This document shows positions 11,474 through 62,143 of a stretch of DNA of 64,000 nucleotides, one piece after another. Under the pieces are notes generated by a model that had not been told where the DNA came from, did not search any database, and worked only from the letters and a program-made list of their open reading frames with translations. How positions within the stretch are numbered: the first letter of the stretch is position 1; the number at the start of each line of letters is the position of its first letter. Source of the stretch: Telmatactis stephensoni. Taxonomy: Eukaryota; Cnidaria; Anthozoa; Actiniaria; Isophelliidae. Location: contig JALIZF010001721.1 of the NCBI GenBank assembly GCA_029948255.1, positions 310,001-374,000 on the forward strand. The letters run 5' to 3'. A program made the translations under genes and the position numbers.

Positions 11474-12444
11474 CTATCCATTACCGCGGATCAATCCATA
11501 TACATATACAGAACTATCTTTAGATTTGGACGACTTCCAACCTGCATGTTTATCGAGCAGATCACCAGATATGCCGGCAGCGCATGAAGCCGTGGCACCA
11601 CCCTTCTTAAGGCTATGAGTACCAAATCGATCTGAATCGGGAACAAAATGACAAAGAGTTTCGCGAAAAAGTTCGCGAACACGAGAATAACTGATAGGGT
11701 TTGGCGATGGCGTACCACGAGAAGATAACCTGCAAACTAAATGTTGTTCACAATCACAAGGCAATTTAGAGAAGAGTTTCTCTGGATGGAAACGGGACAA
11801 GTCACTTTACCAGATCGAGCAAAATAAATAGTATGACCTCGTGAATGCTGATCATTCTTACGTCGAGGGCAAAAAATCGTCATGTGATCGGGAAAAACGT
11901 TGACGTGCTTACGCTGAACTTGGAGGATTTCATTACAACGCATCAATCCTGCGAAAGCTATAACAAAAATAAAGCACATTCTCAGATTGAACAGAGAAGC
12001 AAAACAAGTATTAAACTTCTCCACAACTTGAACTATGATATCCACATTCAAAGACTCTTTGCCAACAACGGGCTTTCCCAATAATCTTTTACAAGATTCA
12101 ACTACTTGCTTAACCATTATGTGTTCTGTAGGGGAAGGCACTCCACTCATTTGATGAGCCCATCGAATGCCATAAATGGCACTCTCGATTGGGGAAGGGG
12201 AATAACACATCTCAAATTTCTCCCTTAAATAGAAACACACGTGAAAAGAAGATACTGGAAACTGATTCAAGCCAAAGTTCTCTTTTTCCCATTTTTTCCA
12301 GCTCAACCAAGCGTTCTTATACTTGACGGAAGTGGATTCTGCTTTGGAATGAAGGACGAAAGACGGAAGAGAATTAGCAAGCTGCTTTAACTTATCGGAT
12401 TCCAGAGTTTCTCTTTGTTTCCAAAATCCAGCTTGAAATACATC
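11474..12444 (-). pseudogene. Tyrosine recombinase of the Ngaro element (frame-shifted)
   Basis: This reading region encodes a phage-integrase-fold tyrosine recombinase, the enzyme that integrates DIRS-order elements by strand exchange. The amino half contains FAGLMRCNEILQVQ, where R is the expected first catalytic arginine. The carboxyl half contains THSLKKGGAT, then HAGWKS, then VYVYG, matching the HxxR, (H/W) and nucleophile Tyr boxes. Two departures are visible. The HxxR arginine is Lys (HSLK). The two halves lie in different frames, with the break near 11,800 (the halves overlap at 11737-11800). No ATG opens the frame: it is readable from at least 12444, after a pyrimidine-rich stretch ending TTTTAG on the minus strand. 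That stretch resembles a splice acceptor, but its phase does not join obviously to the RT gene. Most likely a decayed gene. Confidence 0.85.
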
Positions 12445-12499
12445 TAAAATGAAAGAAAAGAAACGAAAAGAAATACATAGAGCGCGGGTCTAGATCAAA

Positions 12500-14685
12500 T
12501 TAAGAAACATGGGAAAAATCCAGCTTTAAGGCGAGAACTCTGAATTTCGGGAGGCCCGAAAACACAGACTTGTTAGGGGAATAAATACGTGAAGAGCCCC
12601 TGCCAGGCAAAAACGTGCAAGGAATTGTCGGTAAGTACGTGACTTCTTGAATAAAATCTGCAAAAGAAAAACAAGATCCATAGGAACGTAACAAAGGCCA
12701 AAATGGCGCAGACTTCCACTCGGGAACAACAACAACTCCCTTGGCACGACAAAACTCCATGTGATACAGTACGTTACTAATCAAGTAAGGAGGGGGACAA
12801 ACATAATTACAACAATTCCCACCCCAATCCTGGGAAAAACAATCGACAGCTTCGGTGCCGGGACACCAAAATTTCCAGTTAAATCGAGGCAACTGACAAT
12901 TCAGATGACAAGCCATTCTGTCGATGTCGAAGGGACCCCACATGTGAGAAAGAAAATGAAAAAGACTAGGATTCAACATCCAGTCGTCGGGATCCACGAT
13001 ACGGCTCAGGTAGTCGGCTAGGAGGTTTTCGTCTCTGGGAATCCACTGCGCCTGAAAAGAAATGCAATTAGTCATGCAAAAACTAAAAATGTCTACAGCC
13101 AACTGCTGTAGTTCCACAACTGAACTGCCACAATGGACAATACGAACAACATTCTGGTTGTCACAAAACACTTTCACCTTACCACCATCGGTAAGAAAGC
13201 TTGAAAAGCTTTTCAAGGCCAATAAAATAGCCTTCAACTCTCTATAAGTTGAACTCTTCCCACGCTCACATACACTCCACATACCGGAACAAAATTTCCG
13301 ATCGTTACACACGCAAAGGTGTGCTCCATAACCAGATTCACTGGCATCACATGTTAAAATGGCACTGAAACACAAAGGTCTATTAATGGGATAGCCATTA
13401 AAGGCTTCTACGTGATTGAACCAAAACTGGAATTCTTGCAAAACACCTTCGGAAGCGGGAAGGATGTCGTTCCAAGACTGTCGAGACCGAATAAAAAAAT
13501 ACATTTGTCTGGTGAACAATCTGGCAACGGGTCCTAAAGCAAAACCGAGGGAAATTACAAATCCACATAAACTGGCAACATCTCTAACGCAAAGGTTAGG
13601 ATAATCGTTGATTAATCTAGCCAATCTAGATTTTAACTTTAAAACCTTCTTGTCGGGCATGACAAATAACATTCTAATAGTATCGATGGTAATACCCAAC
13701 CATTCGCCAATCTGACGAGGCTCCCAATCGGACTTCTGTTCATTACACTTCCAACCGGAATTCTCTAAGTCACGTCTAACCAATGAACTGGCAGACTTCG
13801 CATCGGCTAACGACCTGCAACCAAAAATACCATCGTCAATATAAAGAATGGCAAAAATACCAAATGATCTCCATCTTGCCACAAATGGCCTAAACATTCT
13901 GGTGAACAAATAGCAGGCGGAAGACAGACCAAATGGCAAAACTCTAAAGATAAAATATCTTGCAATACCTGAAAAACACCAAGAGAAACCTAAATATTTC
14001 CAATAATTAATATTAATATCTAAATGATGATATCCAGACTCTATGTCGAAAGTAAAGAACCAAAAGTTATCTCTAAACATAACAGACAAAGTAGGTAAAC
14101 CTTCGTATTTAAACTTAAAGGGCTTAATATAAGGATTTACTGATCTACTTAAATCTAAAACTAAGCGCAGTTTGCGTCCTGCAACAACAGACAAAGGATT
14201 ACAACAATAAGGAGGAGACATAACCTCCACAATACATCTATTAGTTAGTAATTCATCGCCAAAGCGCTTTGATTGTTTTGAATGAAACAACTAGGCGGAA
14301 CGAAAACAAAAGGAAGATAATACTCATTATTTAAAACACCTAACACTAAGGATGATAACTGCAAGTTCTTAAACCACCAATCCTTGTTAGCAGCTATACG
14401 CCCTTGAACTGACTGAGAACGTGAATCATTAACATCATAAGCAAGCTTGTATTGAAGACACTCAAACACATCAGAATTGCAAACATCTACAACTTGAGAA
14501 ATTGGATCTTCAACAAGGATACAATCATTTTGAGGGTAGTGCTGGAGGAACGATGGTAGGTAGTGAAGGAAGTGCGGCTGGCTGGAACTGCATAGGTCTT
14601 GTGGGCAAAGTTGGGATGGCTCCTGTTGTAGGAGAGACCCTTGAACGATAGATACAAGAACGCCAAAAATGGCCGGGTTTACCAC
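12500..14685 (-). pseudogene. Reverse transcriptase/RNase H of the Ngaro element
   Basis: A 596-codon frame (14290-12500) carries the RT fingers and palm: KLRLVLDLSR, FTFDIESGYHHLDI (motif A), LPFGLSSACYLFTR (motif B) and YIDDG (motif C). An RNase H domain follows, with CDASESGYGAH, ELKAILLALK and FCDNQNVVRIV supplying the acidic residues, then the Cys/Trp-rich tail usual in DIRS-order polyproteins (RFNWKFWCPGTEAVDCF region). The upstream part of the same domain, ending IQNNQSAL, lies in a second frame (14685-14245), so a one-base shift near 14,270 interrupts the protein. It copies element RNA into DNA. The upstream frame overlaps the gag-like frame by about 160 bases, so frameshift translation is a possible way of expression, but the second shift looks like a lesion. 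Confidence 0.9.
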
Positions 14686-15361
14686 AAATATAACAATTAA
14701 AATTCACGGGATAATTAGAACTAAATTCATTACGCATAGTGACATTGCGCCTAGAGTTCTCAAATTTGAACTTGTTCGCCTTCTTCGCTTTTTCCGCTTT
14801 CTTCTTCTCTCTTTGAGATTCGACAGATTTCAAAACTTTACGAATTCGTTTTTCATCCGAGTCGTCGTCGGCAATGGGATCAAGTTTATACTCGGTGACA
14901 AAATCCCAGCCATGCATATCAGCTAAGACGATATGCTTCATTCTTGTAGAAATTAAGTTCTTACCTTCTTCTAAGGCTTCTCTAACCTGAAATAGTTTTC
15001 CCGTTTCTAAACCACGAATGGCGGTGTCCACGTGTGCGGCGACCTTTTCTGAGTGGCGAAACTGTTCTTCGTTGCCCTTTGACTTAAATTGATGTCTAGA
15101 AGATTGTTCGAAGCGCATTCTCTTAACAGCATCGTTAATTGACTCATCATTTTGACGTTTAAGATCCTCTTTGAAAGTCTGAAGTTCAGACGACAGGAAG
15201 CGTTGAAAAGTAACAAAATCTGGAGGAACAGTGGAGGTACTAGTTCCACTCGTAGTAGTTGTTGTACCAGAAACAGAAGGAGTACTGACAGGACCAAAAG
15301 AAGTAATAGGAATAGCAGTAGAGGTCCCAGCAAAAGTTAAATCCGAGACTGGTTCCATCAT
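14525..15361 (-). CDS. Gag-like nucleic-acid-binding protein of the Ngaro element
   Basis: A 278-codon frame starting about 20 bases inside repeat X1. Residues 1-45 are Ser/Thr/Pro-rich. The middle is charged and probably helical, including a Lys-rich run (EKKKAEKAKKANKFKF). A CCHC zinc knuckle, CYICGKPGHFWRSC, lies near residue 225, followed by a Pro-rich end. The knuckle plus basic region fits an RNA-packaging Gag-like protein that coats element RNA. The frame is intact. The start was chosen as the first ATG after X1; a second ATG follows at once. Confidence 0.85.
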   Translation of the reverse strand: MMEPVSDLTFAGTSTAIPITSFGPVSTPSVSGTTTTTSGTSTSTVPPDFVTFQRFLSSELQTFKEDLKRQNDESINDAVKRMRFEQSSRHQFKSKGNEEQFRHSEKVAAHVDTAIRGLETGKLFQVREALEEGKNLISTRMKHIVLADMHGWDFVTEYKLDPIADDDSDEKRIRKVLKSVESQREKKKAEKAKKANKFKFENSRRNVTMRNEFSSNYPVNFNCYICGKPGHFWRSCIYRSRVSPTTGAIPTLPTRPMQFQPAALPSLPTIVPPALPSK

Positions 15362-15380
15362 GACGATACTTCTAACTCAG

Positions 15381-17527: not shown

Positions 17528-18310
17528 GAATTACGGCGACGTCTCCCTGCCAAGCCTGATGACCGCACAGTTGCCAGAACGCTCGACGGAATGTTGTTTA
17601 GAGTAAAACTGGTGCGACCCCTTCCCGCGGATAGAAACAGACCCGATGTGATACAGAATAGAAGAGAGTACGCAACTTGGTTTATGAACCATGCCATACT
17701 GCGTCACTGTGTCTTTGTCGATGAGTGCGGATACAACGTTTGGACGGCCCGGAGCCACGGAAGAGCCAGACTGGGCGAGAGAGCGTATAGACAAGTATGT
17801 GGACAGAGAGGACGAAACATGACAGTCTGTTTAGCAGTATCCCCAGTCGTTGGCTTAGTGTTCCACACTGCTTTTCTTGGAGCAATGACTGCTGATAGAT
17901 TTGGTGATTTCCTGACACAGACGAGACTCAACCTTAATCCTGATGAAGATGTCATATTCATATATGACGGTGCCAGAGCACACAACAACCCACCCAACCC
18001 TGGTCCTAACACCGAAATGCAAAGGCTTCCTCCATATAGTCCATTTCTAAATATCGTTGAACAAGCGATAAGCGCCCTCAAAGCGGCCATAAAAGGAGAC
18101 ATTTCAAGACCGGAGATCCAAACACTGATGGGAAACAGAGAAGCTGCCAGAGATCGCGGACTACCTTTAGGGCAGTTCCGAACACATCTACTCCTAGAGG
18201 CTCTGCAGCGCTCACTCGGCACTATCACTGCAGCTAAGAGCGGCCAATGGTACCGATTCATGCAGACGTATCTGCCACGCTGCTTAAACGGCGAAGTCAT
18301 AGAGGGCTAA
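17528..18310 (+). pseudogene. Tc1/mariner-superfamily DDE transposase, 5'-truncated
   Basis: An open frame of 260 codons from 17528 (first ATG 17591) encodes the DDE catalytic domain. It shows a linker like those following Tc1-type helix-turn-helix regions (VARTLDGMLFRVKLVRPLPA), the first Asp in FVDECGYNVW, the second Asp in IYDGARAHN and the catalytic Glu in PPYSPFLNIVEQAI. I count 30 residues between the second Asp and the Glu, shorter than the 34 usual in Tc1. The amino-terminal DNA-binding domain is missing: an in-frame stop lies at 17525 and nothing recognisable precedes it. The catalytic part itself is unbroken. No terminal inverted repeats were identified, so it is probably an immobile remnant. 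Confidence 0.82.
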
Positions 18311-24525: not shown

Positions 24526-25092
24526 AGTAGTAGGAAAGTGCCGGTTCTGGAACAGAGGTACGAGGTACACCCGGTACACCCCCCCCCCCCCCCCAACCCA
24601 CCCCACACCCCTAGCCCGGCAGGGCGGTACCTCCCCTCCTGGGGTATGGGGTACGACCCCTCCCCTGCTAGCCCGGTAGGGCTACCCCTTTCTGAGGTAT
24701 GATGAGGTACGACCCCCCCCCCTCCCCTTCGAGCCCGCTAGGGCTACCCCTTTCTGAGGTACGGTGGGGTACGAGGGTGGTACAACGAGACATGAATGGG
24801 GTACGAGCGCAGCGAGTTTCCGGTACAGCGATTACGGGGTCGATGACGTCATTGGTGGTGCAATAATCACCAGCCGGTCGAGCAATTTTTCCCTCTTTTG
24901 AATCCTCCTAAATCGTAAATCGTATCATATTAATATATTCTTCTAATTCTTAAATGGTATAGAATTAAAGAAGTAGCAAAAGTGGCCACAAAGAATCAAA
25001 ATTTTAGATTTTCTAAACATGCGTGACGCGTACGGTGCGTGACGGCTATTATTTTGGAAACGGCCATCTGCAAATCTGTTGTTTTAAACTCG
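24526..25092 (+). repeat. Left terminal inverted repeat
   Basis: About 567 bp. The outer half is GC-rich, with a long C tract (about 24580-24596) and repeated words of the type AGCCCGGTAGGGCTACCCC and GAGGTACGACCCC. The inner half is AT-rich and matches the right arm almost exactly from CTAAATCGTAAATCGTATCA through GGAAACGGCCATCTGCAAAT. A CRE-like octamer TGACGTCA lies at 24844-24851. Confidence 0.88.
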
Positions 25093-25302
25093 TGTTGATA
25101 GTTCGTACAAGAATTTGAAACTAGAATTGGAAGTTCCAGAGTCATTTATTCAATTCATTACAAGGGTAAATATTACAATCAAAATTATAGATTTAAAAGA
25201 CATAAGTGTCAGGATCTCGTATCGTTGACACTGTATTTTGAGTCACTAGTTCGTTATGTCTAGAACTTATGCAAATTTTACCAAAACGTTCTGCCTCATT
25301 GG

Positions 25303-25308
25303 TTTATT
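25303..25308 (-). promoter_or_regulatory. Poly(A) signal for the leftward unit
   Basis: TTTATT on the plus strand (AATAAA on the minus strand) lies about 50 bases beyond the stop of the 65-residue frame. A second AATAAA at 25766-25771 lies just after the stop of the acidic gene. Confidence 0.5.
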
Positions 25309-25355
25309 TAAGGCTCGTTCATTGTTTACACAATTGTCTCAAGAGGTATACATGA

Positions 25356-25553
25356 TTAAATTTTGTTGATTTCTTCTTCTTGTTGCTGTAGTCCCGTCAA
25401 TTTCCTTCGGCGCATTTGCTCTTTTAAGGGTACACCACCGAACTGCCCACGACCTGACGAAACCCCGTTTTGTGGTCCCACTTTAAATGTGAGTTCTTTG
25501 AACCAGTCAGGATGAGGTGACTTGCATGAAAAGTTGATCCTAACATCACCCAT
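25356..25553 (-). CDS. Small 65-residue protein of the virus-like element
   Basis: A frame starting MGDVRINFSCKSPHPDWFKE and ending in a Glu/Gln-rich stretch. It is the last of three leftward frames inside the element, 231 bases after the acidic protein gene and just before a minus-strand AATAAA. I recognise no family. It contains a Gly-rich middle (GVSSGRGQFGG) and a basic patch (KEQMRRRK). Position and orientation support it as a real gene; its size leaves doubt. Confidence 0.45.
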   Translation of the reverse strand: MGDVRINFSCKSPHPDWFKELTFKVGPQNGVSSGRGQFGGVPLKEQMRRRKLTGLQQQEEEINKI

Positions 25554-25784
25554 GATTATTTTAGTTCTTCAGCCACTCAGTTTTAACGTAACCTTTCCGT
25601 ACGATCGCCTTTGGGTTTGTGACTCGTAAAGTCAGTGAGAGAACAGTTTATACATGAGATCATAAAGAGATAAATAAATCACTCTGAACGGTTTCAACAA
25701 TGTAAATTCAGATCTTGAAAGGTAGTCAGAGAAACCACACACAAATTTAGTGTCAAACGTCCTCATTTATTAACGTTTGGGATG

Positions 25785-26600
25785 TTACAATTCGCTTTCG
25801 GATTCTTCTTGATTGTCATCGTGATCATCCATGAGTTTTAATTTCTTGAATTTCAACGACAATTGATGGACTGCATCACAGTCTCGACAACGACAAAACT
25901 TGACTTTCGTGGTATGATCATCTACGGCAAAGACGTGTGAGCAAATATCGCATTCAACCAGTTGGTCGTCACGACAATAGTAACCTTCGCGCCACAGGCA
26001 TCTGGGGCATTGCACTACAGGTATGGAATAGAACGATTTGAAGTCACGGCAGACGTGACACTCTAGGGGTTCATCGTCTGATTCTGAACTTTCCGGTTCT
26101 GAATGTTCCTGTGACTCTAAGCTTTCACCAACACTCTCCCTGTCCGACTCTGAAGTTTCTCTTTCAGAGGTTTGGTCACTAGTTTCGCTATCTGTCTCGT
26201 CCTCTTCCGGTTGCCTGGCAACCAAATCTGCCAGAACCCTTTTGTTACGGATCAGTTTCTTGTCAATACCAATCTCTGATAATCCTTGAGTGAACGTTTT
26301 CAACCCACGAGGTACTTTAACATCCAAATTGTAAGGTAACATGACATACTCAATGAGCTCTGCAATGCTGGTGACAGGAATTCTTCGCTCATGATACATC
26401 ATCTCCCCATGGGAGTTCCAGTATAAAATACTTTTCGAAGCTGACAGGGTGTGAAGAAATGCGAGCGCCTTTTCTTCGGGGATACTCTGGGAGAGTTTCT
26501 GCAAAACCTTTTCAATATCGTTATCGTCAAAAGTGGCCTCTTCGGTGTAAGAAGCAATACTGTCTACAGAATCAGTGGACTCGCTCCGTGCTCTTTTCAT
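25785..26600 (-). CDS. Acidic protein with C-terminal Cys-rich zinc-binding region
   Basis: 271 residues in an unbroken frame. Residues 1-30 are Ser/Asp/Glu-rich. Residues about 50-125 form a globular block with ILYWNSHGEMMYHERRIPVT and SIAELIEYVMLP. From memory this resembles a recurrent uncharacterised family in cnidarian and arthropod genomes, with the pattern LYWN..GE......G..I..LI. Residues about 130-178 are a Ser/Glu/Asp-rich disordered run. The last 90 residues hold CHVC, CPRC, CDIC and CRCRDC pairs, enough for two or three zinc sites. The tail after residue 255 is acidic again. It lies 57 bases downstream of the previous leftward gene. The role is unknown; a DNA- or protein-binding regulatory or nucleoprotein function is inference only. 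Confidence 0.75.
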   Translation of the reverse strand: MKRARSESTDSVDSIASYTEEATFDDNDIEKVLQKLSQSIPEEKALAFLHTLSASKSILYWNSHGEMMYHERRIPVTSIAELIEYVMLPYNLDVKVPRGLKTFTQGLSEIGIDKKLIRNKRVLADLVARQPEEDETDSETSDQTSERETSESDRESVGESLESQEHSEPESSESDDEPLECHVCRDFKSFYSIPVVQCPRCLWREGYYCRDDQLVECDICSHVFAVDDHTTKVKFCRCRDCDAVHQLSLKFKKLKLMDDHDDNQEESESEL

Positions 26601-26657
26601 GTTGCTTCCTCAAATGATCAACGTCGAAATGAGCTTCTTCTTTATGGACAGGAATAT

Positions 26658-26984
26658 TTAAAACAAAAACAACTTCAGAGCCGACACCAGGGGTGACATG
26701 ATATCGGACACAAAACCACCACCGCGTTGCGCTAGAGTTTGTTTCTTGGTTTTGAAAGGAACGGATGGGTCGGCCAATTCCCGTATGTCGTCCACATGCT
26801 TTCTCAGTCTTTCTTTTTGCACTTGTGACACTGGTATAGTGCCTTTGGATAAATTCGAGCAAACTTCACAAATGGCATGAACCTGTTCTGGACTAGCGGT
26901 GGCCAGTAAAAGCGTTCTCTGATGAGGAGGACAATTGGTTAAATGATACAAATACCCAAAATGGTCACGGATCAAACGACTCAT
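26658..26984 (-). CDS. Small basic protein with RGGG motif and hydrophobic tail (virion-associated-like)
   Basis: 108 residues. The order is a Leu-rich helical start, CEVCSNLSKGTIPVSQVQKE, a basic helix (KERLRKHVDDIRELAD), VPFKTKKQTLAQRGGG and a hydrophobic end FVSDIMSPLVSALKLFLF. From family knowledge, short proteins with the order C-E-x-x-x-N-L-x-K-G-x-I-P, basic helix, QRGG and a terminal hydrophobic helix recur next to packaging-ATPase genes in Polinton/adintovirus-like elements. They have been compared with small adenovirus core or membrane-active proteins; that comparison is from memory and unverified. It is the first gene of the leftward unit and starts about 90 bases from the minisatellite. 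Confidence 0.75.
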   Translation of the reverse strand: MSRLIRDHFGYLYHLTNCPPHQRTLLLATASPEQVHAICEVCSNLSKGTIPVSQVQKERLRKHVDDIRELADPSVPFKTKKQTLAQRGGGFVSDIMSPLVSALKLFLF

Positions 26985-27073
26985 GTTGTCAGTACGGAAG
27001 ACACCTTAAAATGAGATGTATAAGTTAAGTCAATACTTTTTATTCTCATTTTAAAATAATTGCATATGACTTA

Positions 27074-27505
27074 GATAGGATAGGATATAGAATAGGATAG
27101 GATAGGATAGGATAGGATAGGATAGGATAGGATAGGATAGGATATAGAATAGGATAGGATAGGATATAGAATAGGATAGGATAGGATATAGAATAGGATA
27201 GGATAGGATATAGAATAGGATATGATAGGATAGGATAGGATAGGATATAGAATAGGATAGGATAGGATAGGATAGAATATGGATAGAGGGATAGGATAGG
27301 ATAGGATGGGATAGGGATAGGATAGGATAGGGATAGGATAGGATGGGATAGGATAGGATAGGATAGGATAGGATAGGATGGATAGGATGGGATAGGATAG
27401 GAGGATAGGATAGGGATAGGATAGGATAGGATAGGATAGGGATAGAATAGGATAGGATGGGATATAGAATAGGATAGGATAGGATATAGGATAGGATAGG
27501 ATTGG
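27074..27505. repeat. (GGATA)n minisatellite between divergent genes
   Basis: About 430 bases of GGATA pentamers interrupted by GGATATAGAATA and GGATGGGATAGG variants. It occupies almost the whole intergenic space of the virus-like element, so both promoters must lie within or beside it. Long open frames through it on the minus strand are artefacts of the 5-base period. Confidence 0.97.
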
Positions 27506-27542
27506 ACAGTGAAATAGCAATAAATAGGATTGTTTTACGTTG

Positions 27543-29054
27543 ATGTTTCATTCTTTTAATAGACACAGGATGGGTCGGACGTGTCCTATGTGCAGCAAGT
27601 TTGTGCAAAATGTATCATGTCACTTAAGTCGTGTTCACAAAATTGATGGCCCAGATCGGACACGAATACTACGGGAAGGCAAATCACAGAAAGGTGTTCA
27701 GCGGTTTACTCCCTACCCTCAGACAAAACCTCAAGTGGAAACCAAATGTGACCGGTTTCAATTACTCCACCCATTCACAGCCTTAGTGGCTGGAATGACC
27801 GGCTCTGGGAAAACGGTCTGGGTTCAAAACCTACTGGAACATGCCAAACAAGTCATCCAACCTCCACCTCAACGTATTGTATGGAGTTACTCTCAATGGC
27901 AACCGGCCTACGACCGGATGCTCAAAACGGTCCCTGGGATCGAGTTTGTCAAAGGTATACCCCACGACCTGGATGAGGATTGGTATTTTAACCCCGAGAT
28001 CAACAATCTGATGGTCATTGACGATCAAATGACTGAGACCTCCAACGACAAACGTATCTTGAATTTATTTACCAAGGGATCCCATCACCGAAATCTCAGT
28101 GTCGTCTTCCTCTTGCAAAATGTCTATTTCCAAGGCAAAATCATGCGCACCTTGAGTCTCAATGCAGCCTACCTCGTCCTGTTTAAAAATCCCAGAGACA
28201 AACTACAAATGATGACGTTGGGAAAACAAATGTATCCAGGAAAAACAGACCAGTTTCTTCAAAAGTACGAGGCTGCTGTTCAGCGGCCTTACGGCTACCT
28301 GTTCGTCGATCTCAAACCCAACACCCCCGAGGGGTGTCGACTGCGTACCAACGTTCTTCCAAATGATGCTCGTCCATCGCAGACTGGAGGTCAATCGGAT
28401 GCCGTAAAGACCATCGCTAGCTTTTTTGAGCGTCAAGGGTACTTACAACCACCCCAACTGAAAGCCATGCAGGAACTAGAAGAACAGATGGACGCCATTT
28501 TGAAAGACCCCACCCTACCTCCAGAGGTGAAAATCAAAGAATATGGTCCACTGTTTAATCATTACCTTGCTCTACAACAACAACTCTCCAATACCGGTCC
28601 AGCGATACCGAGACTGGAACCCATCTCAACCGTATCAACATTGGTCGACCAGAGTCAGCCCCCAGCTAACGTGACGACTCCGAAAAACGTGTCTCCTACA
28701 AGTGTGACCAGTGACAGTGGTGTTGGCATGGCAACACCTAAAACACCCTCATTCCTAGAACGCCTGACATCCAAAGTCAGAACACCTTTTAAATCTAGTG
28801 TTCCACAGGGTAGAGAGGAGATACCATCGACTCCATTAAAAGTAGACCAACCCTCTACTTCCACTCCCATCACTCTGTCGAGTGTAGAGTTCCCTCTCAC
28901 ACCCCCATCCACTAAAGAAAAACCCCAAGCTGATCCCAGGTGGATACGTTATCAAGATGAACATAAGTATAGAGGACAGGTGTTCCAACCTCCGAGACGC
29001 TCACAACGAATAAGAGCCATGATTCAGTCCATACCCGGTTGGGAAAAATATTAA
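27543..29054 (+). CDS. Zinc-finger/P-loop packaging-type ATPase of the virus-like element
   Basis: 503 residues from ATG 27543 (a second in-frame ATG at 27570 gives a start just before the finger). A C2H2-like finger, CPMC...H....H, occupies about residues 13-33. The ATPase core follows: Walker A GMTGSGKTV near residue 85, Walker B LMVIDD near 157-162, then FTKGSHHRNLSVVFLLQN (sensor-type Asn/Gln) and LNAAYLVLFKNPRDK. The order fits FtsK/HerA-type DNA-packaging ATPases as found in Polinton/adintovirus-like elements of invertebrates; such enzymes pump DNA into capsids. Residues after about 360 are Ser/Thr/Pro-rich and disordered, ending in a basic patch (PPRRSQRIRAM). It is alone on the rightward side, facing three leftward genes. 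The frame is unbroken and all nucleotide-binding motifs are kept, which argues for selection or recent arrival. Confidence 0.85.
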   Translation: MFHSFNRHRMGRTCPMCSKFVQNVSCHLSRVHKIDGPDRTRILREGKSQKGVQRFTPYPQTKPQVETKCDRFQLLHPFTALVAGMTGSGKTVWVQNLLEHAKQVIQPPPQRIVWSYSQWQPAYDRMLKTVPGIEFVKGIPHDLDEDWYFNPEINNLMVIDDQMTETSNDKRILNLFTKGSHHRNLSVVFLLQNVYFQGKIMRTLSLNAAYLVLFKNPRDKLQMMTLGKQMYPGKTDQFLQKYEAAVQRPYGYLFVDLKPNTPEGCRLRTNVLPNDARPSQTGGQSDAVKTIASFFERQGYLQPPQLKAMQELEEQMDAILKDPTLPPEVKIKEYGPLFNHYLALQQQLSNTGPAIPRLEPISTVSTLVDQSQPPANVTTPKNVSPTSVTSDSGVGMATPKTPSFLERLTSKVRTPFKSSVPQGREEIPSTPLKVDQPSTSTPITLSSVEFPLTPPSTKEKPQADPRWIRYQDEHKYRGQVFQPPRRSQRIRAMIQSIPGWEKY

Positions 29055-29299
29055 GTAGTATTTAACTCATGTATTAATTGTAACTAAAAAAAAAAAGAAA
29101 TTAAATGAAATAATATTCAAACATTTACTGGTGTCTTGTTGTTTAATTTATTACACTTTTTCAAATGTTTTTAGTACATTCGTAATCTTACTTTTTTTCA
29201 TGTACACTCATGATCCGAGTTTAACTGTTTTGTTCTACTCGATGTATAAGTTACTTGCACTCTCCTCTTTTCGTGAAGAGCTGAACTTTATGGTCGATT

Positions 29300-29908
29300 C
29301 GAGTTTCAAAAACAATAGATTTGCAGATGGCCGTTTCCAAAATAATAGCCGTCACGCACCGTACGCGTCACTCATGTTTAGAAAATCTAAAATTTTGATT
29401 CTTTGTGGCCACTTTTGCTACTTCTTTAATTCTATACCATTTAAGAATTAGAAGAATATATTAATATGATACGATTTACGATTTAGGAGGATTCAAAAGA
29501 GGGAAAAATTGCTTGCCCGGCTGGTGATTATTGCATCACCAATGACGTCATCGTACCTCGTAATCTCTGCACCGGAAACTCGCTGCGCTCGTACCCCATG
29601 ATACCCCAATGTGTCGTAATATACCTCAGAAAGGGAGAGGGGTAGCCGTACCGGGCTAGAGGGGTAGCCCTTTCGGGCTCGAGGGGAAGGGGTCGTACCT
29701 CATACCCCTTATCGTACCTCATCTACCGGTGTCGCCCTGTCGGGCTCGAGGGGGGAGGAGTAGCCCTACCGGGCTAAAGGGGGAGGGGTCGTACCTCATA
29801 CCCCTTATCGTACCTCACCTACCGGTGTCGCCCTGTCGGGCTTGGGGTATGGGGGGGGGGGGGGTGTACCGGGTGTACCGGGCGGTGAACTGTCCTTTTC
29901 CTACTACT
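29300..29908 (-). repeat. Right terminal inverted repeat
   Basis: The reverse complement of the left arm, about 609 bp, longer because of additional GTAGCCCTACCGGGCTA/CGTACCTCATACCCCTTATC units in the GC-rich outer half. A G tract (about 29852-29864) mirrors the C tract of the left arm. The CRE-like TGACGTCA is at 29543-29550. Confidence 0.88.
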
Positions 29909-45565: not shown

Positions 45566-48243
45566 ATTTGTTAATGCAGGTTAAAAGTCAGGCAGCCGTA
45601 GCTGATGTGGACCTGCCTATTACTAAATTAAAAAAGTTAATTACAATAATTGAGAAACTTTTACAATGTCAATTAAAATATCTATATATCAATTTACAAT
45701 CACTAAATTTCTCCGGTAGAAATAATACATAGCTCTATAGTACATATATATAGTTAAATTCAAATATAAACAATCATAAAATCTTATAGATTAGTGTGCT
45801 GAGAAAATGGGATGTGTTCGAATTGATTACCACCTGTTTCTTTAGCTAGGTACAAACCAAACACATATCATGTATACACAGAGGATTAAGAGATTCAGCG
45901 ATTTCAAACTACGGACATACCTTAATGTCGCTAAATATCCCAATGCTCTAATATCTAATCCCAAAAATATAGTAAAGAAATAAATATCAGATATTATGCT
46001 AAAATATCATTTACTATATCAAATCATTATCTTCAATAATATTGAAAGCATTCATCCTTATTCAAAATAGATGAGCTTTCTTTCTCAAAGGTAAAGTTAT
46101 TAATGTCCTAATGAATATGTTTTAATTGGCCTTTAAATGTGTTGATGTTCTCATAGTTTTTTACTCGATTTGGCATAGCATTCCATGACAATGTTCCTCT
46201 ATGCTTAAAGGAAAGTCTTGGAATTTCTTTATTGGGTCTTTCAATCTCAAACTGCTTACTTCTTCTGGTCTCATACTTCGTCTTTTTTATTGTAAACAAG
46301 TCTTGGATCTGTGCTGGAGCTGTCTGATAATACACTTGGTGAACGTGTTTCAGGAGTGATTTTTTATAGATATACGAAAGTGGATGCCAATTTGCCCGTT
46401 TAAACATGATGTTATCAGTTTGATGTTATCAGTTAGTATTCTGTGAATATATCTGGCTGCTGTAGAACAACCACCCCAGACAGAGATACAGTACGTAATT
46501 CCTGGTAAAATTGTTTTAAATTAAATCTCTTCAAGTGTTCTAGATGGAAGGCGAGACATTCTTTTCAGAGTTCCAAGTTTCTTTGAATAACTCTTACATA
46601 AGTTATCAATGTGGCACGACCAAGACAGTTAACTATCAATCTCGACACCAAGGCAACGCGTTGACGTGACAAATTTCATACTATTGGAGTTGTAACTAAG
46701 TTCTTGCAGTGGGCCAATAAAGGATGATGTTGAAGTTAACATGGCTTCACTATTACCTAAGTGGATCGAGAGCCTGTTTCTTTTCGAACACTTACAAATT
46801 TGTTTAAGAACTGAGTTCAACAATAAGATGACTGTGTCCACGTTATCACCAATGCAATAGGCAGTTGTGTCGTCTGCGTACATTTCCACTACACCGTCAG
46901 CTGATACTGCATCAGGCAAATCATTCACATAGATGGAATACAGCCCCAATAATGAGCCTTGAGGAACGCCGTAACGAATATTTTTGATTGTTGATTTTGA
47001 GCCATTAACTACAGTGCATTGTGATCTATTATTGAGGTAATCCCGTAGCCAGCTGTAGGAGTTACCCATTATTCCTGCTGCTTGGAGCTTATGTGGAAGA
47101 AGTTCGTGTGAAACTGTATCAAATGCTTTCCTGTAATCGGTGAAGATTACTCCAATGACTTTATTATTATCCAAAGCCGCCCTCTATCTTTCAGTCATAG
47201 AGAGCAGAAGGGTCTCCGTTGATCTACCCTTTCTGAATCCCCATTGATTGTCACTCTATATATTGTGCGTTTGAAGGTGGTTGTCAAGTATGGAGCAGAA
47301 TTGGCTCTCTAATAATTTTCCAGGAGATTGAGCATGGAGAGTGGACGATAATTGGCAGGATCCAATGAGTTTCCTTGCTTGAAGATGGCTGAGACACGAG
47401 CTAGTTTCCACATTGTTGGGAACCTTGAGGATTCAAAGCTTTTACGAAAAACTATGTCAAGCTCAATAATCAGGATTAATAATTGTTGGTGTGACTCTAT
47501 GGAAGAGCATTACTGGGTTGTCTTCATTATCAGAATAGACATTTTCAGCCAGAACGCTTCCGATGTTGACAAAATAGTCATTAATCAATTTAGCTTTTTC
47601 AATATTACTTGTAGAGATTTCCTGTGAAGAGTGCTGCTGTTGCAGTAGCCCAATTCTTTTGTGTTTATTAGAATTCTTATTCTGTATCTTGTTCACTAAA
47701 TTCCAGAAATCACTTGGAATTTTGGCGCTTTTAAACTGTTTATGCCAATATGCTGTTTCTGCCTCACGTAGCATCTTGGTTACTTTGTTTCTTGACTTTT
47801 TATACTCCTCCCAGATGTTTGAGGTTTTGGATGTCCCATCACATTTTTTGAGAAGCTTATATCTTCTGTTCATCTCCTTTCTAATTTCACTAGTCATCCA
47901 TTAATGGCTTTCTTTCCTGATTTTAGCCATACGAGTGGGTATGTGAGCGTTGAGAATGTCTTTGAAGAGCAAATCCCAATGACCTGGTGACGTCGTCCAG
48001 GTCATCGAAGGTGGAGGTAATCCACCAAGGCGATTCTTGTAATTCCCTTTGGAACGACTGTTTATCAAAGTTCTTGTAATTTTTCACCTTGTTGATCAAT
48101 TAGAAACCAGGATTTTTAGCCTTTAGTTTTAATGTCATATAGATGACTTTGTGATCGGCAATACATAGTTTCAAGACACCTGAAGTCATTACTTTGGATG
48201 GATCATTGACAATGACGAGGTCGATGATTGATTTTGTTGTTTG
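45566..48243 (-). mobile_element. 5'-truncated non-LTR retrotransposon (Jockey/CR1-like)
   Basis: The minus strand reads, in order, the end of an apurinic-type endonuclease domain, a linker, reverse transcriptase and a C-terminal domain, then about 540 bases without genes and a (TATG)n run. Truncation at about 48,243, inside the endonuclease, is the usual result of incomplete target-primed reverse transcription. The clade is judged from motif style only. Confidence 0.82.
46108..48243 (-). pseudogene. LINE endonuclease/reverse transcriptase ORF2, decayed
   Basis: Several frames carry the pieces. At about 48,243-48,105 KSIIDLVIVNDPSKVMTSG and IADHKVIYMTLKL form the end of the endonuclease (the D-H pair of the SDH motif), then a stop. 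At 47897-47463 lies the charged linker (MTSEIRKEMNRRYKLLKKC). At about 47250 GFRKGRSTETLLLSM is followed by an in-frame stop. At 47174-46629 are RT motif A (FTDYRKAFDTVSHELL), motif B with a small deletion (GVPQGSLLGLYSIYVNDLP) and motif C (YADDT). At 46407-46108 is the C-terminal domain ending with FKHRGTLSWNAMPNRVK. Stops and shifts between these blocks make it non-functional. Confidence 0.85.
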
Positions 48244-60427: not shown

Positions 60428-61801
60428 CTAGCAATGAGTGGTAGTATTCCAACCTACCTCTCTTGTGAAACAAAACTTTGCGTTGGAATGGATAGAAATA
60501 TCCAAGCAATGTGTCCTTAGTTGCGGTTCGATGATCAGTCCACTAAACCCTGCAAGAGTTAATCCCAGTCCACTACCGAGGCTCACAAAAGCGCGGGAAA
60601 ACTCTCTGCCACGCGCGTCTTTCTCCTTATTTCCCGCCATCGCAAATGTATTCAAATAAAGAGCACCTGCTGCAACTCCATGCTCAAATAAGATAAGAAA
60701 AACGGGCCAGACGGATGGCAAAAATCGATGCCAGCTAGCGAAAAGAGAAAACAGTAAATTTGCTCCCATAATTATTGTAAAAATCCATGTTCTTTCAGTT
60801 AAAACTGAACGAGAAGAGCACATGTAGTATGCAACCATGGAATACGATCGTCCCAATAGCTCTCCTACTGAAAAGCAAAAGAAGTAATACTGATAGTGAA
60901 GAGTTGGTGTGAAAGGCGAATCTGCGAAAGCCAATGTCGTCACGACTGCCTGTACCGTCAGATATTCACAAAAAACTCCCAGGATGAGTGACAGTACCAA
61001 AGGAATAGCCCGCTTCATTATCATTAGTTTATCTTTCCAATTATATTGTTGTTTTTCCGTTTGGCTGGGTGTTATCTCCGTGTAGGGCACTGACTGATGA
61101 GTCGTTGGCTTATGGCTTGTTGAATGTCTGTTTATGTAGAGAAAGATTAATAGAATGAGAAGTGGGATTCCTGACGTTGTTAGAAGAGCTGTCATGGGGC
61201 TAGTACAAGCCCATGCTGTCAACGCTGAAAGATAGATAGAAAAGGAATGAAATAATGTCAAGGAAAACAATTTCCAGAATTAGCATTACTAACCTGTATA
61301 ATAAAATGGTCCAACAGCAAAACCCGTCCCTGTTCCCCCACAGTACATCTTTATGGCAACGTCATCAAAGAATGCCGTCAGACATAGGAAGCTCGTTTCA
61401 GCGATGCCACAACCAAGAGATATCAAACAAACGCCAGTTAACTTGACTCCTACAGCTTCTGCTAGCGCTACCATTAGTATCCCGGATGTACATAGAAGTG
61501 TTACTAAAGGTATTCTGACTATGGCTGGAACAGCGGGAATGAAGTACGGTGCAAGCGCTGTAGCGGCGAAGAATGGAAGAGACGTACACAAAAGAACAGT
61601 GGTTGTTGGGATGGACGTTCCCGCCAAAATGTCTTGCGCGGCGGCCATTCCCAGGTACAGCACGGTAAATACCAATAAACCCAGAAAATAAAACAGCCAA
61701 GGATAGCTTGGTGGATCACTGGAATTCATTTCTTTGGTGTGTGCATCCGTGTTACCCTTTTTGAGAATCATCTCTTTTTCGTCTTTTACCTTTTTCCGCA
61801 T
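60428..61801 (-). CDS. CLN3/battenin-like multi-pass membrane protein (2 exons)
   Basis: Exon 1 is 61801-61294 and exon 2 is 61224-60428. The intron is 69 bases with a GTTAGT donor and TTTCAG acceptor in phase 1, and the joined protein has 434 residues (human CLN3 has 438). A short charged start (MRKKVKDEKEM) precedes about ten hydrophobic segments. Family landmarks: VLYLGMAAAQDIL near residue 45, the polar loop between the halves (HKPTTHQSVPYTEITPSQTE), HYQYYFFCFSVGELLGRS, FLPSVWPVFLILFEHGVAAG, ALYLNTFAMA and EFSRAFVSLGSGLGLTLAG near residue 390. CLN3 proteins reside in the lysosomal membrane. In mammals CLN3 loss impairs clearance of glycerophosphodiesters and causes juvenile Batten disease. 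The divergent sequence could mean a CLN3 paralogue rather than the orthologue. The frame is intact. Confidence 0.85.
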
Positions 61802-62143
61802 TGTTTTTGTTTTCGTTCACTGACAGGAGGTGAAAACTGTAAATGAAATATAAAGGATGTTATTATATTTTGAAAATAATTCAAGAGTTTAATTTTGATT
61901 GGCTAAGAGCCACCGGATAAATTACCATAGTCGCCGGCTAGCTGCCCAAATTTGGAGTTATGAAAATGTTGAAAACCATTATTCGAAGTTATGACGTAAT
62001 TTTCTCGAATATGGAAAATTAGCTTGCGGTATGACGTCACGCTAATTTATGCGATTCATGCCAAAAGCGGGAAAACAACAACAACATGTATTCTTGTCAA
62101 CAAAGCACAACTGAGAAAGAATTATTTTCAAAAAATAATAAAA
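61802..62143. other. 5' flank of the CLN3-like gene
   Basis: Presumed promoter side of the minus-strand gene. No TATA element close to the start. TATGACGTCA-like CRE half-words occur near 61,992 and 62,030. Confidence 0.35.

Follow-up and report, generated by a model that had tools for sequence, protein, structure and literature searches.

How can a small mobile element persist in an animal genome when it encodes a DNA-packaging motor but nothing recognizable with which to replicate, insert or enclose its own DNA? The question is raised by a 5383-bp (5.4 kb) element at positions 24526–29908 of a 64-kb stretch of the Telmatactis stephensoni genome (483.5 Mb assembly GCA_029948255.1; contig JALIZF010001721.1, here C234, positions 310,001–374,000 of the forward strand), hereafter the window, which carries terminal inverted repeats (TIRs) at both ends and four open frames. 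Judging from profile comparisons, three of its genes are of Polinton (Maverick) ancestry; at least two of them evolve under purifying selection, and the element belongs to a mobile, multi-copy family. We consider it probable (roughly 0.6) that this is a non-autonomous mini-Maverick, which has a packaging module of its own and takes polymerase, integrase and capsid from a helper.

The left TIR (24526–25092, 567 nt) consists of an outer part made of GGTACGACCCC/AGCCCGGTAGGGCT-type units and an inner, unique segment of ~250 nt, and the right TIR spans 29300–29908 (609 nt), in line with the inverted termini of about 570–610 bp noted in a preliminary description of the window. The two repeats of this copy are identical at 485 of 526 aligned columns, and their inner 245 nt are 98% complementary. 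The left repeat opens with AGTAGT (24526–24531, + strand) and the right one terminates in ACTACT, which is exactly the (AGT)2//(ACT)2 form of the Maverick end motif (the alternative form being (AG)3//(CT)3) and, according to PMC8097293, the commonest end motif of vertebrate Mavericks/Polintons. Between the repeats, frames of 108, 271 and 65 amino acids (aa) run leftward from the centre and a 503-aa frame runs rightward, with a GGATA/GATAG-type microsatellite (27071–27513) between the divergent genes; the open-frame analysis agrees with the four unbroken, divergent genes described earlier. The 65-aa frame (25356–25553, − strand), the putative fourth gene, is kept open in other copies, with 97–98% identity in four of them and 91% identity over 55 aa in a diverged one (L113).

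The 503-aa protein (27543–29054, + strand; likely start at 27570) combines a C2H2 finger, an A32/FtsK-HerA-type packaging ATPase, a helical hairpin and a proline-rich tail. Its Walker motifs and its fold, that of viral packaging NTPases, support the previous assignment as a finger/P-loop packaging-type ATPase, and the ATPase matches the A32/FtsK-like ATPase Sputnik V3. The 108-aa protein (26658–26984, − strand) has a conserved Q-x-G-G-x tail, and a degenerate version of this pattern, run on the window only, has one match, within the 108-aa gene. The 271-aa protein (25785–26600, − strand) comprises an N-terminal domain, an acidic middle and a C-terminal end with four CxxC pairs.

Reference Polintons came from a scan in which the ATPase alignment was run against genome contigs of GTDB and which yielded three contigs (L064, L065 and L066). 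These sit in metagenome-assembled genomes (MAGs) filed under a tubeworm endosymbiont and a Zixiibacteriota bacterium, and are probably mis-binned eukaryotic (animal or protist) or viral DNA. In L065, from the Escarpia tubeworm endosymbiont MAG, a PolB gene (Pfam DNA_pol_B_2) comes first, then those for the ATPase, the small GG protein (103 aa) and the third protein (273 aa); an integrase with rve and chromo domains comes next, and after a short frame there are three frames without Pfam matches, which from their position we take to be penton, pVI-like protein and capsid. The ATPase, small protein and third protein block is also present in L064 and L066. Profile comparison of the window ATPase family with the Polinton ATPase gave E = 7e-75, and that of the 108-aa family with the small GG protein adjoining this ATPase gave a probability of 98.6 (E = 1.2e-15). 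The third protein is matched in two places: its first half by the hairpin of the 503-aa protein (probability 82, E = 1e-5) and its second half by the N-terminal part of the 271-aa protein (hhalign; probability 73, E = 3e-5). The scores of the 108-aa, 271-aa and hairpin comparisons were reached in 0 of 60 column shuffles each, and an unrelated profile pairing, used as a control, gave a probability of 0.1. When ten Polinton proteins were compared with all 64 kb, only the ATPase, the small GG protein and the third protein matched at E < 0.1, all within the element. PMC8097293 describes a ppolb-atp-pm-pz module in vertebrate Mavericks; by gene order only, the 108-aa protein would be PM-like and the N-terminal part of the 271-aa protein PZ-like, so that the element may be equated with atp, pm and pz without ppolb.

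The ATPase is matched by 399 database proteins, of which 120 are listed, and the best named matches of the element are in Actinostola and Exaiptasia, where its gene families are conserved, which argues that the layout is old. In an Actinostola gene model (P0016), the ATPase is fused to a stretch resembling polymerase B (27% identity with the L065 PolB over 108 aa, E = 4e-9), so genes of these two kinds are neighbours in one place at least. Protein scans of IMG/VR viral contigs gave no protein relative. A 17-base terminal-repeat word occurred in 63 IMG/VR contigs; so short a word would turn up by chance in a collection this large. A PHROGs search gave nothing convincing, PDB sequence searches found no convincing relative of the ATPase or the 271-aa protein, and Foldseek with the poorly predicted structure of the latter (pLDDT 53.7) returned nothing at E <= 0.001.

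The other expected Polinton genes were sought in the window. The L065 PolB gave nothing below E = 0.1 (tblastn), the L065 integrase had a best E of 5.7, the L065 penton frame had no match, and the L065 capsid frame had a best E of 0.13, at which very diverged capsids could escape. A Pfam scan of five frames found no PolB, no integrase and no adenovirus-like protease family, no Polinton protease having been used as a query. The earlier proposal that the element keeps morphogenesis rather than replication genes therefore fits the data, with the packaging block present and polymerase, integrase and capsid unmatched. A parvovirus-like reading, considered for its size (5 kb) and inverted termini, was rejected, as the genes derive from Polintons and neither a superfamily-3 helicase nor any parvoviral family came up in the Pfam scan of the frames.

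The check for further copies in the host genome revealed a multi-copy family with shared ends. Among 663 candidates, 86 ATPase matches were scored, of which 68 span the full length and have no stop, while 16 contain stops and 2 are partial. Ends were fetched, in small stretches (10 + 6), for 16 copies besides that of the window; both ends were found in 13 of these, which, like the window copy, start with AGTAGTAGG and end with CCTACTACT. A perfect target-site duplication of 6 bp, the length characteristic of Mavericks, flanks 12 of the 13 copies, and one of 5 bp flanks the remaining one. Ten of these copies are 5279–6189 bp long and three more are 5728–5822 bp long (5.3–6.2 kb overall, n = 13). 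The right end was seen in 24 of 30 loci, at 21 distinct flanks. TIR interiors vary between subfamilies, whereas the two TIRs of a single copy are 98–99.9% identical. The family is thus mobile, and the Maverick ends together with the 6-bp duplications imply the action of an integrase of the Maverick type. The possibility raised at the outset, that the TIRs belong to an ordinary transposon around host-like genes, was looked for and is not the case; the three-gene ancestry, the ends and the duplications in sibling copies all sustain the initial view of a miniature, probably non-autonomous relative of Polintons and adintoviruses.

Selection was assessed from ratios of nonsynonymous to synonymous substitution rates (dN/dS; Nei–Gojobori), with pairs grouped into dS bins and those with dS < 0.001 excluded. 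Across bins, and with the reservation that pairs are not independent, dN/dS was 0.22–0.42 for the ATPase (28 sequences) and 0.14–0.50 for the 108-aa gene (27 sequences), which demonstrates purifying selection on both. A miniature inverted-repeat transposable element (MITE) would have no coding capacity under selection, and these two intact genes place the family, as had been suggested, opposite to a MITE-type deletion derivative. The selection acting on these packaging genes implies a role in the spread of the element for the packaging of its own DNA or for control over a helper's packaging. Synonymous divergence of the ATPase and the 108-aa gene was discordant for L067 against L077 (0.072 versus 0.159) and against L090 (0.166 versus 0.069), which suggests recombination between subfamilies.

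We propose that the element originated from the Polinton ATPase, small GG protein and third-protein block (atp-pm-pz by gene order). The third protein would have been split, its first half coming to lie behind the ATPase and its second half being joined to an acidic, zinc-ribbon-like protein, while a C2H2 finger was added in front of the ATPase and the Maverick ends were kept. As there is no polymerase gene, replication would occur in trans: a full-length Polinton co-resident in the cell would provide the protein-primed polymerase, which would copy the linear DNA from its ends, and its integrase would insert the element with a 6-bp duplication. The helper would also supply capsid proteins, and the element's own ATPase, guided by the finger and the small proteins, would load element DNA into helper capsids or divert these capsids. 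Packaging by its own motor into the helper's capsids is the simplest reading, and we infer both this and the borrowing of polymerase, integrase and capsid; the capsids would come from Polintons of the same genome, with specificity conferred by the finger and assistance from the small proteins. Larger virus-like elements are probably what it parasitizes. More tentatively, the family may be one of high-copy packaging satellites, whose selected motor and accessory proteins capture the capsids of resident Polintons or adintoviruses while nothing is encoded to replicate, insert or enclose their DNA.

Candidate helpers are present, as the genome contains polymerase- and capsid-bearing Polinton-like elements among its 88 PF03175 polymerase matches. 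One of these lies ~250 kb from the window on the same contig (G000 C234:621000-632984; L119, L120), where it is cut by the contig end, and contains a 1482-aa polymerase frame and, after it, a capsid gene that matches the L065 capsid frame with E = 2e-24; the part examined has no ATPase match. On another contig (C821), a polymerase, an ATPase 40% identical to that of the element, a capsid and a penton match are grouped together. One frame there resembles the small GG protein (probability 93.9), no frame tested matched the Polinton third protein, and the ATPase stands apart from the fused ATPases in a tree of ATPase domains.

Several observations weigh against the mini-Maverick interpretation. 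No particle, transcript or interaction with a helper was observed. No full-length Polinton with the element's TIRs was found, no genome search aimed at one having been made. The C234 and C821 Polinton-like stretches, which do not include all of their ends, gave no match to the element's TIRs; an rve integrase was not demonstrated in the host genome, for which no aimed genome search was made, and in the C234 element none is visible, the one match being to a tyrosine recombinase and below threshold (Phage_integrase, E = 0.033). Three of the 16 fetched copies (L123-L124 on C145; L125-L128 on C384 and C51) yielded no ends, and the window copy has no target-site duplication, which rearrangement after insertion would explain. 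Some loci are probably one site on duplicate contigs, the 21 distinct flanks among 24 right ends pointing to a few such cases. Support for the fused-ATPase clade is low (0.23), and the tree is not relied on. Finally, the N-terminal part of the 271-aa protein is less clear on selection than the ATPase and the 108-aa gene, with dN/dS of 0.86 and 0.44 (16 truncated loci), a weak signal; stronger evidence comes from the conservation of this family across species, in which the CxxC cysteines are invariant. The C145 copy itself has inverted repeats of >1.3 kb with ~100-bp tandem units, and in one of the three copies without ends the repeat is longer than the stretch fetched.

Some of these features could also be left by a passive internal deletion of a Polinton, in which, by MITE-like logic, Polinton enzymes move the ends and the genes are leftovers: a deletion could account for the Maverick ends, the 6-bp duplications and a set of genes that are adjacent in Polintons, and close pairs have dN/dS near 1 in the 271-aa N-terminal part. 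We nevertheless regard this origin as unlikely, given 68 of 86 ATPases intact, dN/dS well under 1 for the ATPase and the 108-aa gene, and gene families conserved in Actinostola and Exaiptasia. Moreover, two genes have domain fusions and splits not seen in L064–L066, so that the copies are not simple deletions of the Polintons examined.

The same high intact copy number, selection and coexistence with PolB- and capsid-bearing elements would be expected if the element were one segment of a multipartite virus-like system, with polymerase, integrase and capsid on another TIR-bounded segment and each segment needing the other; two-segment linear single-stranded DNA viruses, the bidnaviruses, exist. 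Mutual need is hard to reconcile with the C821 Polinton-like element, which has its own ATPase beside the capsid gene and so needs none from the mini-element, and we consider such a system quite improbable; the C234 element, cut by the contig end and with no ATPase match in the part examined, could still fit it. An intact, selected, high-copy family beside potential targets might instead serve the host, its packaging proteins acting as decoys that jam Polinton or adintovirus assembly and its copies forming a reservoir against viruses, a role that has been proposed for virophages in protists. The copies are scattered and have the ends and duplications of a mobile element, however, which suggests that they spread selfishly, and we regard this role as very unlikely.

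Among known systems, phage satellites such as P4 and the phage-inducible chromosomal islands (PICIs) are small and combine their own packaging specificity factor with the helper's capsid, an arrangement that the mini-element would share under the mini-Maverick hypothesis; they use terminase parts in bacteria, whereas a full FtsK/HerA-type motor, with hypothetical helper dependence, is found here in an animal. Virophages have an A32/FtsK-like packaging ATPase and may offer a parallel in hyperparasitism, but encode their own capsid proteins, whereas no capsid match was seen in the mini-element. Animal Mavericks/Polintons share the (AGT)2//(ACT)2 ends, TIRs of a few hundred bp, the 6-bp duplication and the three-gene block; in contrast, intact vertebrate Mavericks measure 12.7–24.6 kb in PMC8097293, nothing in the window matched PolB, integrase, penton or capsid, and the genes of the mini-element are fused and split otherwise. 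Adintoviruses share the packaging ATPase superfamily and occurrence in cnidarians (a Stylophora coral adintovirus is named in a passage of PMC11071308), but carry PolB, integrase and hexon (in part from passages of PMC11071296), which were not matched here. Text searches of the open-access literature, with subscription journals and Repbase notes outside their scope, found no report of a non-autonomous or mini Polinton or Maverick of this type. Polintons themselves are known; as far as the literature was searched, a high-copy, coding, selected branch that is capsid-less, polymerase-less and packaging-only is new.

Elsewhere in the window, long frames at 11737–15376 (− strand) with reverse transcriptase and tyrosine-recombinase-like features appear DIRS-like by eye, and a frame at 17528–18310 (+ strand) resembles, again by eye, an IS630/Tc1-type transposase. 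Inspection by eye also suggested broken reverse transcriptase frames of the LINE (long interspersed nuclear element) type at 46629–47900 (− strand) and two battenin (CLN3) gene-like frames at 60428–61816 (− strand). Rfam and tRNA scans of the window gave no matches.

Whether animal Maverick/Polinton elements make virions is a long-open question. A selected motor without polymerase, integrase or capsid makes little sense unless capsids come from elsewhere, and the selected packaging motor of this family is therefore an indirect sign that Polintons do assemble capsids. The family accounts for a large set of unnamed cnidarian proteins. If the packaging-satellite reading is correct, the Polintons of this host would form particles, and packaging satellites would extend from bacteria to animals, where the mini-element would be a counterpart of PICIs and P4.

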